A stretch of 64,000 bases of DNA from Azospirillum sp. (GTDB taxonomy: Bacteria > Pseudomonadota > Alphaproteobacteria > Azospirillales > Azospirillaceae), in NCBI GenBank assembly GCA_027486405.1, contig JAIXPD010000010.1, positions 1 to 64,000 on the forward strand. The letters run 5' to 3'. Positions within the stretch are counted from its first letter, which is position 1; each line of letters opens with the position of its first letter. The notes beneath the pieces were generated by a model. That model was not told the origin of the DNA. It saw nothing but the letters and a program-made list of their open reading frames with translations, and ran no database searches. Both the position numbers and the translations under genes were made by a program. This document shows positions 29,377 to 38,159 of this stretch, in pieces.

Positions 29377-30444
29377 TCAGGCGCGAACGCGGGGTTGGCT
29401 GCGGACGCGCGGGGCGGTCAGGGCGCGGGCGATGCGGATCGCGCCGTCCCCGTCCAACGGCAGCGCCGCCGCCACCGTCGCCATGGCCGACCGCCGCGCC
29501 GGGTCGGTCCACAGCATCAACGCCGCGTCGGCAATCGCCGCCACCGCGTCGCCGCCGCGCGCGTCCACCGCGTCGCACCAGCCCAGCGCCGCCGCGTCCC
29601 GGCTGGCCATCGCCTGGTTGTCGGCCGTCACCACCAGCAGGGTCGGGACCGCCAAGGCGGCCAATTCCCCCATCGTGCCGCCCCCGGCCGACACCGCCAG
29701 CCCGGTTTCGGCCATGACCGCGCCCATGCGCGGGCAATCGATCTGCACCGCCACACCCGGCCCCAACCGCTCGGCCAGGGCGGCGACGTCCGCCGCGCGC
29801 GGGTTGCTGCCGCCCACCACCGCCAACAGACGGCACCCGTCCGGCCGCCGGTCGGCCAGCCGTTCCAGAAGCGGCCCGGTCAGGCCCAGCGGATCGGACC
29901 CGCCGAAGGTCAACAGCAGCACCGGGCGGTCGGCGATGGACCGCCGCGCCTCCCGCGCCGCCAACCGCACCTCGCGCCGCAAGGGGGCGTAGCCGGGGCC
30001 GAGCAGCAGCGCCGCACCGGGGGCCATGCGGTCGTAGGGAAGACGGTCGGCCTGCGGGGCGGCGTTGACCACCAGATCGGCGTAGAGCGGCCCGCCGTCG
30101 CCCAGATCGTCCCAGGCCAAGACCCGGATGCGGGCGGCCTGCAAGCCCGCGCGGTACGCCTCGCCAAAGCGGTAGCCGTCCAGCATGACCGCCGTGCAAT
30201 GCTCCCGCCGCAAGGCCGAACGGGTGGCGGCCAGATCCGCCGCCTCCCCCACCGGACCGGCGATGGCGATCCGACGGAAGCCGTCACGGTCCAGCCGTTG
30301 ATCCATCGCCGGGGTGGATTCCGCACAGGCGAACAACACCTCGTGCCCCTCGTCGCGCAGCGCTTCCGCCACGGCAAGGCATCGCATCACATGCCCCGTT
30401 CCAACAACGGGGGAGGAATCGGCGCGGACGAGAATGATGGCCAT
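29377..30444 (-). CDS. pseG: PseG-like NDP-sugar hydrolase
   Basis: A 355-aa GT-B-fold protein similar to PseG, which removes UDP from the 2,4-diacetamido trideoxy sugar in pseudaminic acid synthesis. The N terminus RADSSPVVGTGHVMRCLAVA carries the family G-x-G-H-x-x-R-C motif with the catalytic His (about residue 18). The second half has LLLTFGGSDPLGLTG and the nucleotide-binding AVSAGGGTMGELAALAVPTL. It is the last gene of the eight-gene sugar operon, 30 bp after E1 beta. No PseB, PseC, PseF, PseH or PseI partner is in the window, so it may act on the unusual sugar made by this operon rather than on the pseudaminic precursor. Confidence 0.75.
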   Translation of the reverse strand: MAIILVRADSSPVVGTGHVMRCLAVAEALRDEGHEVLFACAESTPAMDQRLDRDGFRRIAIAGPVGEAADLAATRSALRREHCTAVMLDGYRFGEAYRAGLQAARIRVLAWDDLGDGGPLYADLVVNAAPQADRLPYDRMAPGAALLLGPGYAPLRREVRLAAREARRSIADRPVLLLTFGGSDPLGLTGPLLERLADRRPDGCRLLAVVGGSNPRAADVAALAERLGPGVAVQIDCPRMGAVMAETGLAVSAGGGTMGELAALAVPTLLVVTADNQAMASRDAAALGWCDAVDARGGDAVAAIADAALMLWTDPARRSAMATVAAALPLDGDGAIRIARALTAPRVRSQPRVRA

Positions 30445-30474
30445 CGGCGTGTGTCCGTCTGCGCAGCCGTCGGG

Positions 30475-31545
30475 TCAGAAAGGACCCCGGAACTGCACCT
30501 GATGGGCGAGTTTGGTCCGTTCCGGGTCGGGTGTCCAGACGGGTGCGGCGGGATGCACCAGCGCGTGCGCCGCCGACGCCACCGTGCCGGGATTGGGGTA
30601 GAAGGCCGCCTCCAGCACCGGCGACGGCGGGCAGGCGGTGGCGGCGAAGCCAACGCGTTTGACCGCGACGCCCCCCTCCGGCCCCAGCCGCTCCAACACA
30701 CCGGCGACGATCTCCGCCCCGGCTCCGCAGGCGGTCCACCCGTTGTCCGCCACCAGCAGACGGCGGGTGCGGCGCGCGGACTCCGCGATGGTGTCGATGT
30801 CCAGCGGCGTCAGCCAAATCGGGTCGATCACCTCCGCCGACACCCCAACCTCGGCCAGCAACTCCCGCGCGCGCAGGCATTCCAACACCATGTTGGAAAT
30901 GCCGACCATCGTCACGTCGCTGCCCGGTGCCACCACCCGCGCCTTGCCCGGCTGCACTTCGTACGCGGGTTCCGGCACATAGGCTTCGGTGGGGTAGAGC
31001 AGCCGGTGTTCCATAAAGATCACCGGGTTGTCGTCGCGGATGGCGGCGATCATGCAGCCCTTGGCGTCGTGGGCGTTGCTGGGGGCCACCACCTTCAGCC
31101 CCGGCACATGCATGAACATCGAGTGCAGCCCCTGGGAATGCTGCGCCCCCTGCCCCCAGGATTTGCCGACCATGGAGCGCACCACCAACGGCACCGTCAC
31201 CGACCCGCCATACATCGCCCGCGCCTTGGCGGCGATGTTGATGAGCTGGTTCATGCACAGCAGCAGGAAATCCATGCGGATGTGGACGTGGATCGGCCGC
31301 ATCCCGGCCATGGCCGCGCCGATGGCGACCCCGGTCATCGCGTCTTCCGACAAGGGCGTGGTGAAGACGCGCTCCGCCCCGAATTCCGCCAGCAACCCGG
31401 CGGTGGAGCCTTGGATGGATTTGTGATCGTCCACGTCCAGGCCGAAGACGAACACATCCGCGTCGCGGCGCATTTCCTGCGCAACCGCCTCGCGCAGGGC
31501 ATCGACGTAGCGCAGCAGACGGCCGTCAGGCGTAGACGTGGTCAT
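30475..31545 (-). CDS. TPP-dependent dehydrogenase / carboligase E1 beta subunit
   Basis: A 356-aa transketolase-type pyrimidine-binding subunit like the beta chain of pyruvate or acetoin dehydrogenase E1. Visible signs are the Glu activating TPP in FTTPLSEDAMTGVAIGAAMA, the His-bearing GKSWGQGAQHSQGLHSMFMH, and the C-terminal transketolase domain (VIDPIWLTPLDIDTI, LVADNGWTACGAGAEIV). The ATG at 31545 lies 20 bp inside the end of the alpha gene, so the two are coupled. No E2 or E3 gene is present. In a sugar operon such a pair is more likely to add a two-carbon unit to a keto-sugar than to feed the citrate cycle. Confidence 0.88.
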   Translation of the reverse strand: MTTSTPDGRLLRYVDALREAVAQEMRRDADVFVFGLDVDDHKSIQGSTAGLLAEFGAERVFTTPLSEDAMTGVAIGAAMAGMRPIHVHIRMDFLLLCMNQLINIAAKARAMYGGSVTVPLVVRSMVGKSWGQGAQHSQGLHSMFMHVPGLKVVAPSNAHDAKGCMIAAIRDDNPVIFMEHRLLYPTEAYVPEPAYEVQPGKARVVAPGSDVTMVGISNMVLECLRARELLAEVGVSAEVIDPIWLTPLDIDTIAESARRTRRLLVADNGWTACGAGAEIVAGVLERLGPEGGVAVKRVGFAATACPPSPVLEAAFYPNPGTVASAAHALVHPAAPVWTPDPERTKLAHQVQFRGPF

Positions 31546-36868: not shown

Positions 36869-38038
36869 TCAGGCGCACACGCGGTCAAGCACAGCGCGCA
36901 GGCGTTCGATCTGTGGGGTCAGATCATAGGGGTGGTTGCCGACGAAAAAGCCCAAATCATGCGCGGTGAACGCGTTGGTGATGTCGCCGACCGTGTCGTA
37001 CTCATAATATTTCAGCACATCGTGGCGCAGGAAACAGCCGCCGGTGATGATGCGGAAACCGATGTCCGCCTCCTTCAGCGCGGCGAACACCCTGTCCCGG
37101 TCCGGGTTGCGCGCCGGGTTGAGGATGATGGTGAAGCTGAAGCAGGACGACCGCCCGTTTTCGCGCTGGATGATGAAGCGGTCATCCCCGGCGAACAGGG
37201 ATTGGAACAGCGCCATGTTCTGGCGGCGGACGGCGGTGAAACCGGGCAGCTTCTTCAACTGCTCCCGCCCGACGGCCCCCTCCATCTCCAACGGACGGAC
37301 GTTGTAGCCCGGCAGGATGAAGCGGTACGCCTCGAAATGATCGGACGCCGTGCGCGTGTACAGCGGGGTGTCGACCGGCAAATCGCGGGTCCAGCCGTGG
37401 GCGCGCATCGACCGGCAGAGATGCGCCAACTCCACATCGTCGGTCAGCACCATCCCGCCTTCCATGGTCGAGATGTGGTGCGAGTAGAAAAAGCTGAAGG
37501 TGTTGAGGTCGCCAAAGGTTCCGGTCTTGCGCCCGGCCAACTCGGCGTCCATCGACTCGCAATTGTCCTCCAGCACACACAGCCCATGGGCATCGGCAAA
37601 GGCACGGATCACGTCCAGCGCCGCCGGGTTGCCCAGGATCGACACCGGGACAATCGCCCGCGTGCGCGGGGTCAGGGCCTGTTCCAGCTTCGACACGTCG
37701 ATGTTCAGCGTGTCCAGCTCAACATCGACAAAACGCAGCTTCAAGCCATATTGCTGCAAGGGATGATAGGTGGTGGCCCAGGAAATCGCCGGAACGATCA
37801 CCTCGTCCCCGCGTTGCAACGGGCGCTCCGCCTTGTGGGCCAGCGCGGCCACCGCGATCAGATTGGCCGACGAGCCGGAATTGACCATGATGCCGTGCCG
37901 GGCACCGAAATAATCGGCAAACTCCCGTTCGAACGCGGCCACCTCGTCGCCCATGGTGAAGCGGCCGGACGCGACCACGCGGTTGATCGCCGCAACCTCT
38001 TCCGGTCCCCAAGTGGTTGCCGCCAACTCGTAGAACAT
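36869..38038 (-). CDS. DegT-fold PLP enzyme with His for Lys: ColD-like sugar 3-dehydratase
   Basis: A 389-aa member of the DegT/DnrJ/EryC1/StrS fold. The PLP-phosphate Asp is in VLEDNCESMDA (Asp158). At the place of the Schiff-base lysine, TFSFFYSHHISTMEGGMV has histidines 187-188 instead. This His substitution is the mark of ColD (GDP-4-keto-6-deoxymannose 3-dehydratase) and E1-type dehydratases, which remove the C3 hydroxyl rather than transaminate. I see no clustered cysteines like the [2Fe-2S] site of E1, so a ColD-like reaction fits better. ATG 38038 (MFYELAATTWGPEE) is the family start; TTG 38104 would add 22 unlike residues. It is the first gene of the eight-gene operon, behind a CtrA-like site. 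Confidence 0.85.
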   Translation of the reverse strand: MFYELAATTWGPEEVAAINRVVASGRFTMGDEVAAFEREFADYFGARHGIMVNSGSSANLIAVAALAHKAERPLQRGDEVIVPAISWATTYHPLQQYGLKLRFVDVELDTLNIDVSKLEQALTPRTRAIVPVSILGNPAALDVIRAFADAHGLCVLEDNCESMDAELAGRKTGTFGDLNTFSFFYSHHISTMEGGMVLTDDVELAHLCRSMRAHGWTRDLPVDTPLYTRTASDHFEAYRFILPGYNVRPLEMEGAVGREQLKKLPGFTAVRRQNMALFQSLFAGDDRFIIQRENGRSSCFSFTIILNPARNPDRDRVFAALKEADIGFRIITGGCFLRHDVLKYYEYDTVGDITNAFTAHDLGFFVGNHPYDLTPQIERLRAVLDRVCA

Positions 38039-38144
38039 CCAACCGACCCCAATGTGTTGAGCGGCCGCCACAGGGTGCACCACAGAGCGCACCGGACGCG
38101 CCAAAGAAACCGCCGTCAGCCCCAGCGATTTGGACCGAAGGCCG

Positions 38145-38159
38145 TTAACAATGCTTTAA
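38145..38159. promoter_or_regulatory. CtrA-like box upstream of the sugar operon
   Basis: TTAA (38145-38148), seven bases, TTAA (38156-38159): an exact full-site match to the alphaproteobacterial CtrA consensus. It lies about 105 bp before the ATG of the ColD-like gene and just beyond the stop of the 232-aa gene (38195). By position it serves the sugar operon. Confidence 0.5.

Follow-up and report, generated by a model that had tools for sequence, protein, structure and literature searches.

Background

Thiamine pyrophosphate (TPP) enzymes of the E1 type are proposed to put two-carbon (C2) branches on keto sugars in about 120 antibiotic-type gene clusters, according to the sections of a 2025 review that deal with them (PMC12247030). 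The same sections record that split transketolases have been proposed for the hydroxyacetyl branching of two antibiotics and ascribe the branched sugars of lipopolysaccharide (LPS) to YerE-like enzymes (PMC12247030). For Campylobacter jejuni, the parts of PMC10680097 on guanosine diphosphate (GDP)-heptose describe the oxidation of this sugar at C4 by Cj1427, with 2-oxoglutarate converted to L-2-hydroxyglutarate, and the formation of GDP-4-keto-3-deoxy-heptose (m/z 616.08) by Cj1427 together with a C3-dehydratase. Here we describe an operon of eight genes in 64,000 nucleotides of DNA from Azospirillum sp. (the window: positions 1 to 64,000 of contig JAIXPD010000010.1, GenBank assembly GCA_027486405.1). 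It brings genes of these kinds together with one for a B12-binding radical S-adenosylmethionine (SAM) enzyme, and probably makes a two-carbon-branched 3-deoxy-heptose (steps 1 to 4 of the pathway proposed below).

Among the carbocyclic sugars of bacterial surfaces, caryose from Pseudomonas caryophylli is a 4,8-cyclo-3,9-dideoxy-nonose, as given in the structural part of PMC9671505, and bradyrhizose forms hemiacetals that involve hydroxyls 4, 5 and 9, as given in that of PMC9912281. We found no genes established for either sugar in the literature, and one paper terms those for bradyrhizose 'unknown'. In the account of PMC13142503, methylases make up most of the B12 radical SAM enzymes; HpnJ, BchE, OxsB, PbsB and ladderane synthase are named there as enzymes that do not methylate, and all of these form rings or rearrangements. 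HpnJ turns a glucosamine glycoside into a cyclitol ether, in the description given by PMC12583986. Does the pathway of this operon stop at the branched sugar, or does its radical SAM enzyme close that sugar into a ring?

Results and discussion

The operon

The eight genes share the minus strand and span 29377-38038. In the order listed, they are separated by 18, 45, -4, -4, 20, -20 and 30 bases. We set the start of degT at 38038 in preference to that of the open reading frame at 38104.

36869..38038, minus strand, degT: ColD-type pyridoxal or pyridoxamine phosphate (PLP/PMP) enzyme, predicted nucleoside diphosphate (NDP)-4-keto-sugar 3-dehydratase; nearest PDB chain ColD, His for the PLP Lys
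35906..36850, minus strand, epi: short-chain dehydrogenase/reductase (SDR), predicted NDP-heptose C4-dehydrogenase (Cj1427-like); PDB 6vo6/6vo8 match, L-2-hydroxyglutarate oxidase as neighbour in related loci
34298..35860, minus strand: B12-binding radical SAM enzyme, predicted to tailor the branched sugar, with ring closure favoured; PF02310 and PF04055, CxxxCxxC
33576..34301, minus strand: nucleotidyltransferase, HddC-like; NTP_transferase, nearest PDB chains 5xhw/6jq8
32566..33579, minus strand: GHMP kinase, HddA-like; nearest PDB chains the heptose kinases 3k85 and 4n3o
31526..32545, minus strand: TPP enzyme E1 alpha, predicted C2-carboligase; E1_dh PF00676 at 190.6 bits, TPP motif GDG...NN, placement in the E1 tree
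30475..31545, minus strand: TPP enzyme E1 beta, C-terminal tail ending FRGPF; PF02779 and PF02780 (Transket_pyr and Transketolase_C)
29377..30444, minus strand, pseG: PseG-family nucleotide-sugar hydrolase, predicted to release the free sugar; TIGR03590, GTGHVMR motif

The Pfam and NCBIfam families are DegT_DnrJ_EryC1, SDR epimerase, B12-binding with Radical_SAM, NTP_transferase, GHMP kinase, E1_dh, Transket_pyr with Transketolase_C, and PseG. These matches bear out the family names given in an initial annotation of the window, just as the coordinates (gaps of -20 to 45) bear out its minus-strand operon of eight genes with gaps of at most 45 bp and several overlaps. Its labels HddA-like and HddC-like were rightly so qualified, the equivalog models being matched far below cut-off.

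Conservation of the gene set

The radical SAM protein served as bait: of the 210 relatives it found among genome contigs, the best 80 were kept as loci (L035-L114), and partner genes were counted inside the retrieved flanks by identity thresholds of our own choice. Since the loci closest to this bait were kept, the counts show how often the partners accompany the radical SAM gene and not the reverse. The loci span Azospirillum, Magnetospirillum, Planctomycetes, Acidobacteria, Omnitrophota, Nitrospirae, cyanobacteria and Legionella. Five partner types were counted: degT (58 of the 80 loci), epi (50), the nucleotidyltransferase (41), the HddA-like kinase (57) and a TPP enzyme, which is E1 (either subunit) in 47 and a split transketolase in 13. 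All five types are present in 31 loci and none in 7. In the 40 loci with long flanks (about 8 kb on each side) the corresponding counts are 33, 32, 25, 33, 29 and 6, with both TPP types in one locus; at least four of the five types are found in 30 of these loci and all five in 19. The seven-gene core is widely conserved across phyla, and because the same set is found again in distant phyla it is not a chance grouping. The initial annotation had looked to the co-occurrence of all eight genes; this holds for the core, while PseG accompanies it only in the window and in two of the 80 loci, both Azospirillum.

The radical SAM gene of A. cavernae, which is of the same genus as the host, is 87-88% identical to that of the window. 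The gene occurs at 54% identity or more in 12 of 82 genomes of the same order, in 17 of 385 genomes of the class (E 1e-70), and in 4 of 195 genomes of the genus of genome G438. Around it in eight class genomes (L173-L180, with L179 repeating L068) there are at least four partner types in six, only E1 in one and none in one. Seven genomes of Azospirillum or near it (L148-L154) comprise two with all seven core genes, one in which epi, E1 and degT sit 20 kb from the radical SAM gene, one with epi and the kinase, one with the kinase and a NUDIX gene, and two with the radical SAM gene alone in the stretch read. Four of 72,556 plasmid records carry the gene: those of A. lipoferum 4B, A. ramasamyi, A. 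argentinense and Solidesulfovibrio magneticus (pDMC1). The pDMC1 set consists of genes for the radical SAM enzyme, a NUDIX protein, the kinase, E1 alpha, E1 beta, a GDP-L-fucose-synthase-like (Fcl-like) SDR, DegT, the epimerase and the nucleotidyltransferase, with lhgO farther along. Five loci (L056, L061, L062, L065, L066) have a radical SAM gene of 63-65% identity without the module, each near HAD phosphatase-like and CutA-like frames.

The E1 pair as predicted branching enzyme

The E1 alpha and beta sequences were concatenated in a tree of 69 pairs, to which 44 of the 47 E1-bearing loci contributed after a filter for length and stops, and from which L205 and L206 dropped out. Nine references split from the other 60 pairs with a support of 1.00; seven of them have an annotated E2 gene in the fetched stretch, and the remaining two are the strongest E1 of the host genome and a fused Streptomyces E1. 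On the side of the operon lie all cluster E1s, an Azospirillum oryzae cluster and two Streptomyces plasmid pairs (49% and 45% identity in E1 beta), one of which is beside a condensation-domain gene and the other unannotated. The placement of the Streptomyces pairs inside that side is weak (support 0.14), and the tree holds no characterised alphaKADH2 sequence. Four E2 and two E3 queries (E 1e-6) found no match in the 80 related loci. Among the 77 E1 beta frames listed, 48 have a tail that ends in GPF, those of the window and A. oryzae included; in both Streptomyces sequences it ends in GPY. The tail is missing in the seven E2-linked references, as it is in a second cluster clade (L075, L078, L083, L087, L088 and others), so it marks only part of this E1 class. 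Pyruvate dehydrogenase E1 models are matched at 276.2 of 393.85 and 278.3 of 321 bits, below their equivalog cut-offs.

In the 13 loci with a split transketolase, no transketolase gene is farther than about 2 kb from some other partner gene. L113 is the only one of them that also has E1, which lies about 8 kb from the rest and groups with the A. oryzae type. Two transketolase genes stand upstream of degT, epi and the radical SAM gene in L041, L044, L047 and L051, the place that E1 alpha/beta take in L046 and L048. When 59 labelled loci are placed on a radical SAM tree, the label switches between E1 and transketolase 9 times (mean of shuffled labels 12.0, smallest 8), which indicates several exchanges and labels that follow the tree only loosely. 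E1 and the split transketolase are exchangeable within the module, and we found no description in the literature of the two as alternatives in one conserved cluster. By the caryose reasoning set out below, loci of the transketolase type would make a C9-hydroxy analogue.

The split in the tree, the lack of detectable E2 or E3 genes nearby and the split transketolase in the place of E1 support the prediction that the pair is a two-carbon branching enzyme. The initial annotation had suggested a nucleotide-activated 3-deoxy sugar with a TPP-derived two-carbon branch and had pointed to an E1 tree as a check; its suggestion is strengthened by the separation from E2-linked E1s of the pyruvate dehydrogenase type, by the absence of E2/E3 matches and by neighbours that would give the right acceptor. 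YerE-like and mycobacterial caryophyllose-type enzymes were rejected as candidates, as they belong to another TPP superfamily in the classification set out in PMC12247030.

The A. oryzae plasmid carries a second type of cluster (L203 1795-14150), with genes for a PfkB-type kinase, a SIS protein, three SDRs, E1 alpha/beta, two DegT proteins, a shorter radical SAM enzyme and a NUDIX protein.

The predicted heptose substrate

The nearest PDB chain to the PLP enzyme is ColD (2gms, 381.1 bits), well before the RfbH-type 3bcx (170.1 bits). Its SHHIST motif has His where the PLP-binding Lys is expected; the first His of the pair is taken as the lysine position by our reading of the alignment. Among 60 aligned DegT-like proteins this position is His in 56 and Lys in four (L039, L097 and two in L099), and L039 and L099 have a His-type copy as well. 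The enzyme is, by these likenesses, of the ColD type and a predicted NDP-4-keto-sugar 3-dehydratase. GDP-4-keto-3-deoxy-heptose, the product of Cj1427 and the C3-dehydratase, is the exact acceptor that a C2-branching TPP enzyme requires.

The SDR matches PDB 6vo6/6vo8 with 378.8 bits across residues 5-311, the next chain scoring 76.5. What the initial annotation had called an epimerase is thus a C4-dehydrogenase relative and the predicted supplier of the 4-ketone for the ColD-type enzyme. A gene of the L-2-hydroxyglutarate oxidase family is present in 15 of the 80 loci; the SDR gene is found in 14 of these and directly adjoins it in 10. All 15 match the NCBIfam model of this oxidase, the sole one compared with the cut-off passes it (330.5 vs 299), and lhgO is annotated in the Solidesulfovibrio cluster. 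This otherwise odd neighbour would be accounted for by an SDR of the Cj1427 type, whose chemistry yields L-2-hydroxyglutarate.

The HddA-like kinase is nearest to the heptose kinases 3k85 (139 bits) and 4n3o (129 bits), with fucokinases at 69 bits or less. The nucleotidyltransferase is nearest to 5xhw/6jq8, '6-deoxy-D-mannoheptose pathway protein' (135 bits), with mannose-1-phosphate guanylyltransferases at 95 bits or less. Genes for GmhA occur in 15 and for GmhB in 6 of the 80 loci, and the operon has neither. The GmhA cut-off is passed in none of three genomes (the host and two relatives), and all three have GmhA-like genes below it. The resemblance of the SDR to 6vo6, the heptose-type kinase, and GmhA and GmhB in related loci make a heptose the most likely sugar, not the yersiniose-like hexose that the initial annotation implied.

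The proposed pathway

Once the heptose is activated, the SDR would oxidise C4 to a ketone, its bound reduced nicotinamide adenine dinucleotide being reoxidised by 2-oxoglutarate (step 2), and the ColD-type enzyme would take off the 3-hydroxyl to give a 4-keto-3-deoxy sugar (step 3); both reactions are known for homologues in print. E1 alpha/beta would then decarboxylate pyruvate on TPP and place the acetyl group on C4, giving 4-C-acetyl-3-deoxy-heptose with nine carbons (step 4). The B12 radical SAM enzyme would rework this branched sugar; the likeliest reaction is the redox-neutral formation of a bond between C7 and the branch ketone, which would leave a caryose-type cyclopentane (step 5). 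PseG would then free the sugar from its nucleotide (step 6).

Ring closure is put forward for step 5 tentatively. By computation, 4-C-acetyl-3-deoxy-heptose and caryose share the formula C9H16O7, and because the predicted product is isomeric with caryose the last step may be a ring closure. To turn one into the other only the C7-C8 bond would have to be made, a redox-neutral change such as hydrogen abstraction at C7 followed by attack on the ketone might bring about. The initial annotation had the sugar further changed by the radical SAM enzyme; that idea is kept and narrowed to a possible closure of the ring.

The radical SAM proteins of the window, of 40 of the 80 loci and of L171 were aligned, and CxxxCxxC is kept in all 42. 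The best NCBIfam models for the window protein are HpnJ (161.8 bits), BchE (147.6), ApyD (127.0) and the ladderane type (105.2), all under cut-off, that of the HpnJ equivalog being 577.6. HpnJ matches all 42 relatives with the best E-value, and several methylase models likewise find 41 or all 42 of them. Salvage genes for 5'-methylthioadenosine (MTA) or 5'-deoxyadenosine lie near the radical SAM gene in 7 of 101 loci, which fits heavy cleavage of SAM and is silent on the reaction. In Legionella maceachernii (L109 6573-12415) a radical SAM gene without the rest of the module is followed by genes for MTA phosphorylase, a FucA-like aldolase, Apt, MtnA and a MetK-like protein, likely a 5'-deoxyadenosine salvage set.

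PseG and the flagellum

PseG scores 193.8 bits against TIGR03590 (cut-off 153.55), and no PDB chain matched it at E 1e-5; the predicted release of the sugar from its nucleotide is plausible. The operon lies between genes for tetratricopeptide repeat (TPR) glycosyltransferases and flagellar genes, the window genes having been named by us from sequence; in A. cavernae and A. doebereinerae, too, it has flagellar or TPR genes next to it. Three large TPR proteins are encoded beside the operon at 17147-25999, one of them matching glycosyltransferase group 1. Upstream of the operon on the same strand, 38195-38893 encodes a conserved protein with no assigned family, which is likewise upstream in A. 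cavernae and A. doebereinerae.

The host genome (5.49 Mb, 96 contigs, 93.7% complete) has a single PseG and a single NeuB. On another of its contigs (C53, L146 2873-13061) a flagellin gene is near NeuB, SpsF-like, adenylate-forming-like and TPR-transferase frames, named by eye; this is likely a flagellin glycosylation island. PseB exceeds its cut-off in two relatives and not in the host genome, and both relatives have a second NeuB. The PseG product could feed the single NeuB of the host, a lead only at this level of genome completeness. In the widest reading of the operon, the radical SAM enzyme would form the bond between C7 and the branch ketone on GDP-4-C-acetyl-3-deoxy-heptose, the module would be a general route to carbocyclic sugars, and PseG would free the sugar for the flagellin-linked NeuB, which would add three carbons to give an undescribed flagellar ulosonic acid. 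As a whole we consider this unlikely, and its PseG/NeuB half is much less likely than its ring-closure half.

In another Azospirillum genome (G030, L155 6817-13850), genes for PseG (47%), E1 alpha/beta and DegT (43%) lie together, with no radical SAM gene in the 20 kb read.

A candidate bradyrhizose cluster

Bradyrhizose seems to be a sugar of a similar kind, branched and then closed. We searched the 195 genomes of the genus of G438 with a published gdh primer in trimmed form; with up to two mismatches it was found in seven, and a control pattern read backwards about equally often, in at least eight, so matches to this primer alone mean little. Genome G621 has an exact match, and in it both gdh primers lie 358 bases apart within one SDR gene. 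Around this gene is a candidate bradyrhizose cluster of 11 genes (L191 10397-20627, also L193, L194 and L195) with a split transketolase and GmhA-like, SDR and nucleotidyltransferase genes, the other names being given by eye. It suggests TPP chemistry in bradyrhizose synthesis. None of the 11 genes in G621 matches the radical SAM enzyme, the ColD-type enzyme or the HddA-like kinase; the module was accordingly rejected as the bradyrhizose cluster, being rather a cousin pathway. The cluster of G438 was rejected as the gdh cluster for want of a primer match.

Alternative explanations

Several observations weigh against the pathway as drawn. Neither TPP enzyme was found in 21 of the 80 loci, many of them on short contigs, nor in 6 of the 40 with long flanks, and 10 of those 40 hold fewer than four of the five partner types. 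The PDB entry 6vo6 is one that we take to be C. jejuni Cj1427, a link between code and name not confirmed from the literature. The NCBIfam equivalog cut-offs of HddA (147 of 600 bits) and HddC (109.1 of 300) are far from reached, and a GmhA-like gene elsewhere in the host genome scores 161.9 bits, under the cut-off of 209.45; because these three cut-offs are missed, a heptose cannot be taken as proven for the substrate. In the PDB, the radical SAM enzyme has its best match in AprD4, a radical diol-dehydratase (70 bits; 91 with a profile). An Fcl-like SDR of at least 35% identity is encoded in 32 of the 80 loci (for example L199 17119-18048) and not in the window; it could act on the branch ketone, reducing the very group on which ring closure depends, or could reduce or epimerise an intermediate. 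Lastly, the candidate bradyrhizose cluster is without a radical SAM match, so ring formation there seemingly needs none, and the claim of a general route is weakened.

The alternative that survives best keeps the same branched sugar and has the radical SAM enzyme methylate, deoxygenate or epimerise it, with no ring; in our estimate it falls only a little short of probable. The prevalence of methylases among B12 radical SAM enzymes (PMC13142503, in its general account), the methylase models that match nearly all relatives and the likeness to AprD4 speak for it. The two top models, HpnJ and BchE, are nevertheless non-methylases, and HpnJ makes its cyclitol ether from a sugar (PMC12583986, in its description of that enzyme).

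Was the substrate a hexose of the GDP-mannose type, and the product an octose like yersiniose or eurekanate? ColD itself works on a GDP-hexose, the nucleotidyltransferase also scores 140.9 bits against a mannose-1-phosphate guanylyltransferase model, and HddA and HddC miss their cut-offs. We nevertheless judge a hexose improbable, given that the SDR is by far nearest to 6vo6, that related loci have GmhA, GmhB and a heptose-type kinase, and that a hexose route to a 4-keto-6-deoxy sugar needs a 4,6-dehydratase, which the operon lacks.

More doubtful still is an early action of the TPP enzyme, in which its product would be the phosphate of a ketose or deoxyketose, to be isomerised and activated later. 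Transketolase and GmhA do occur together in some loci, as in the normal heptose phosphate route. With pyruvate, though, the product of E1 would be a 1-deoxyketose, from which a GmhA-type isomerase can make no aldose, yet E1 and GmhA coexist (L075, L077, L078, L083, L103); early action would also leave the 4-keto-3-deoxy acceptor without a use. Finally, an ordinary pyruvate or acetoin dehydrogenase E1 that stands here by chance, as the names of the best family models would have it, was rejected as very improbable in view of the tree split, the lack of E2/E3 matches in the 80 loci, the in-place exchange with transketolase and a tail absent from E2-linked references.

Comparison with known systems

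Each kind of enzyme in the operon is known, and the combination is new to us; searches of the literature on caryose, bradyrhizose, caryophyllose and GDP-heptose with radical SAM or transketolase gave no description of this gene set. The GDP-heptose modification of C. jejuni is alike in having a C4-dehydrogenase relative, 3-dehydration of the ColD type and a kinase and nucleotidyltransferase of the heptose kind, which would jointly make the ketone that E1 needs. It differs in that the ketone is epimerised or reduced, and the parts of PMC10680097 on this system describe no TPP branching enzyme or radical SAM enzyme. The yersiniose pathway, with a ColD/RfbH-type dehydratase and YerE, likewise deoxygenates C3 and then adds an acetyl branch at C4. 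Unlike the operon, it uses a YerE of the decarboxylase (acetohydroxyacid synthase-like) superfamily and a cytidine diphosphate-hexose, with no heptose genes and no radical SAM enzyme.

The alphaKADH2 enzymes of aldgamycin, kibdelomycin, paulomycin and avilamycin resemble the E1 pair, as stand-alone pairs beside deoxysugar genes with pyruvate as predicted donor and a keto sugar as acceptor (PMC12247030, in its sections on these enzymes). Those systems act on hexoses or pentoses of secondary metabolites, whereas the operon resembles a surface- or flagellin-type heptose cluster, has a radical SAM enzyme and recurs in many phyla. The split transketolases of miharamycin and amipurimycin, with hydroxyacetyl as predicted donor group, are like those that replace E1 in 13 of the 80 loci; the sections of PMC12247030 on this type place it in Streptomycetes only, whereas here it is found in Magnetospirillum, Legionella-type, Bradyrhizobium-type and other genomes. 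The gdh cluster of bradyrhizose (PMC4743980) shares a split transketolase and GmhA-like, nucleotidyltransferase and SDR genes with the module and differs in having no match to the radical SAM enzyme, the ColD-type enzyme or the HddA-like kinase. HpnJ of the hopanoid cyclitol ether gives the top radical SAM model and also makes a carbocycle from a sugar; it differs in acting on a lipid glycoside, and its equivalog cut-off is missed (161.8 of 577.6).

Neither caryose biosynthesis genes nor caryose from organisms carrying the module were found in the literature. If the proposed pathway is right, heptose activation, deoxygenation, TPP branching and B12 radical chemistry are united on one nucleotide sugar, E1 and transketolase are shown to be interchangeable branching enzymes, and the L-2-hydroxyglutarate oxidase genes in sugar clusters are explained. 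Caryose, in the structure given by PMC9671505, has the formula C9H16O7, lacks the 3-hydroxyl and carries a two-carbon unit (C8-C9) on C4, and the module is a concrete gene set whose predicted enzymes match these features one by one.

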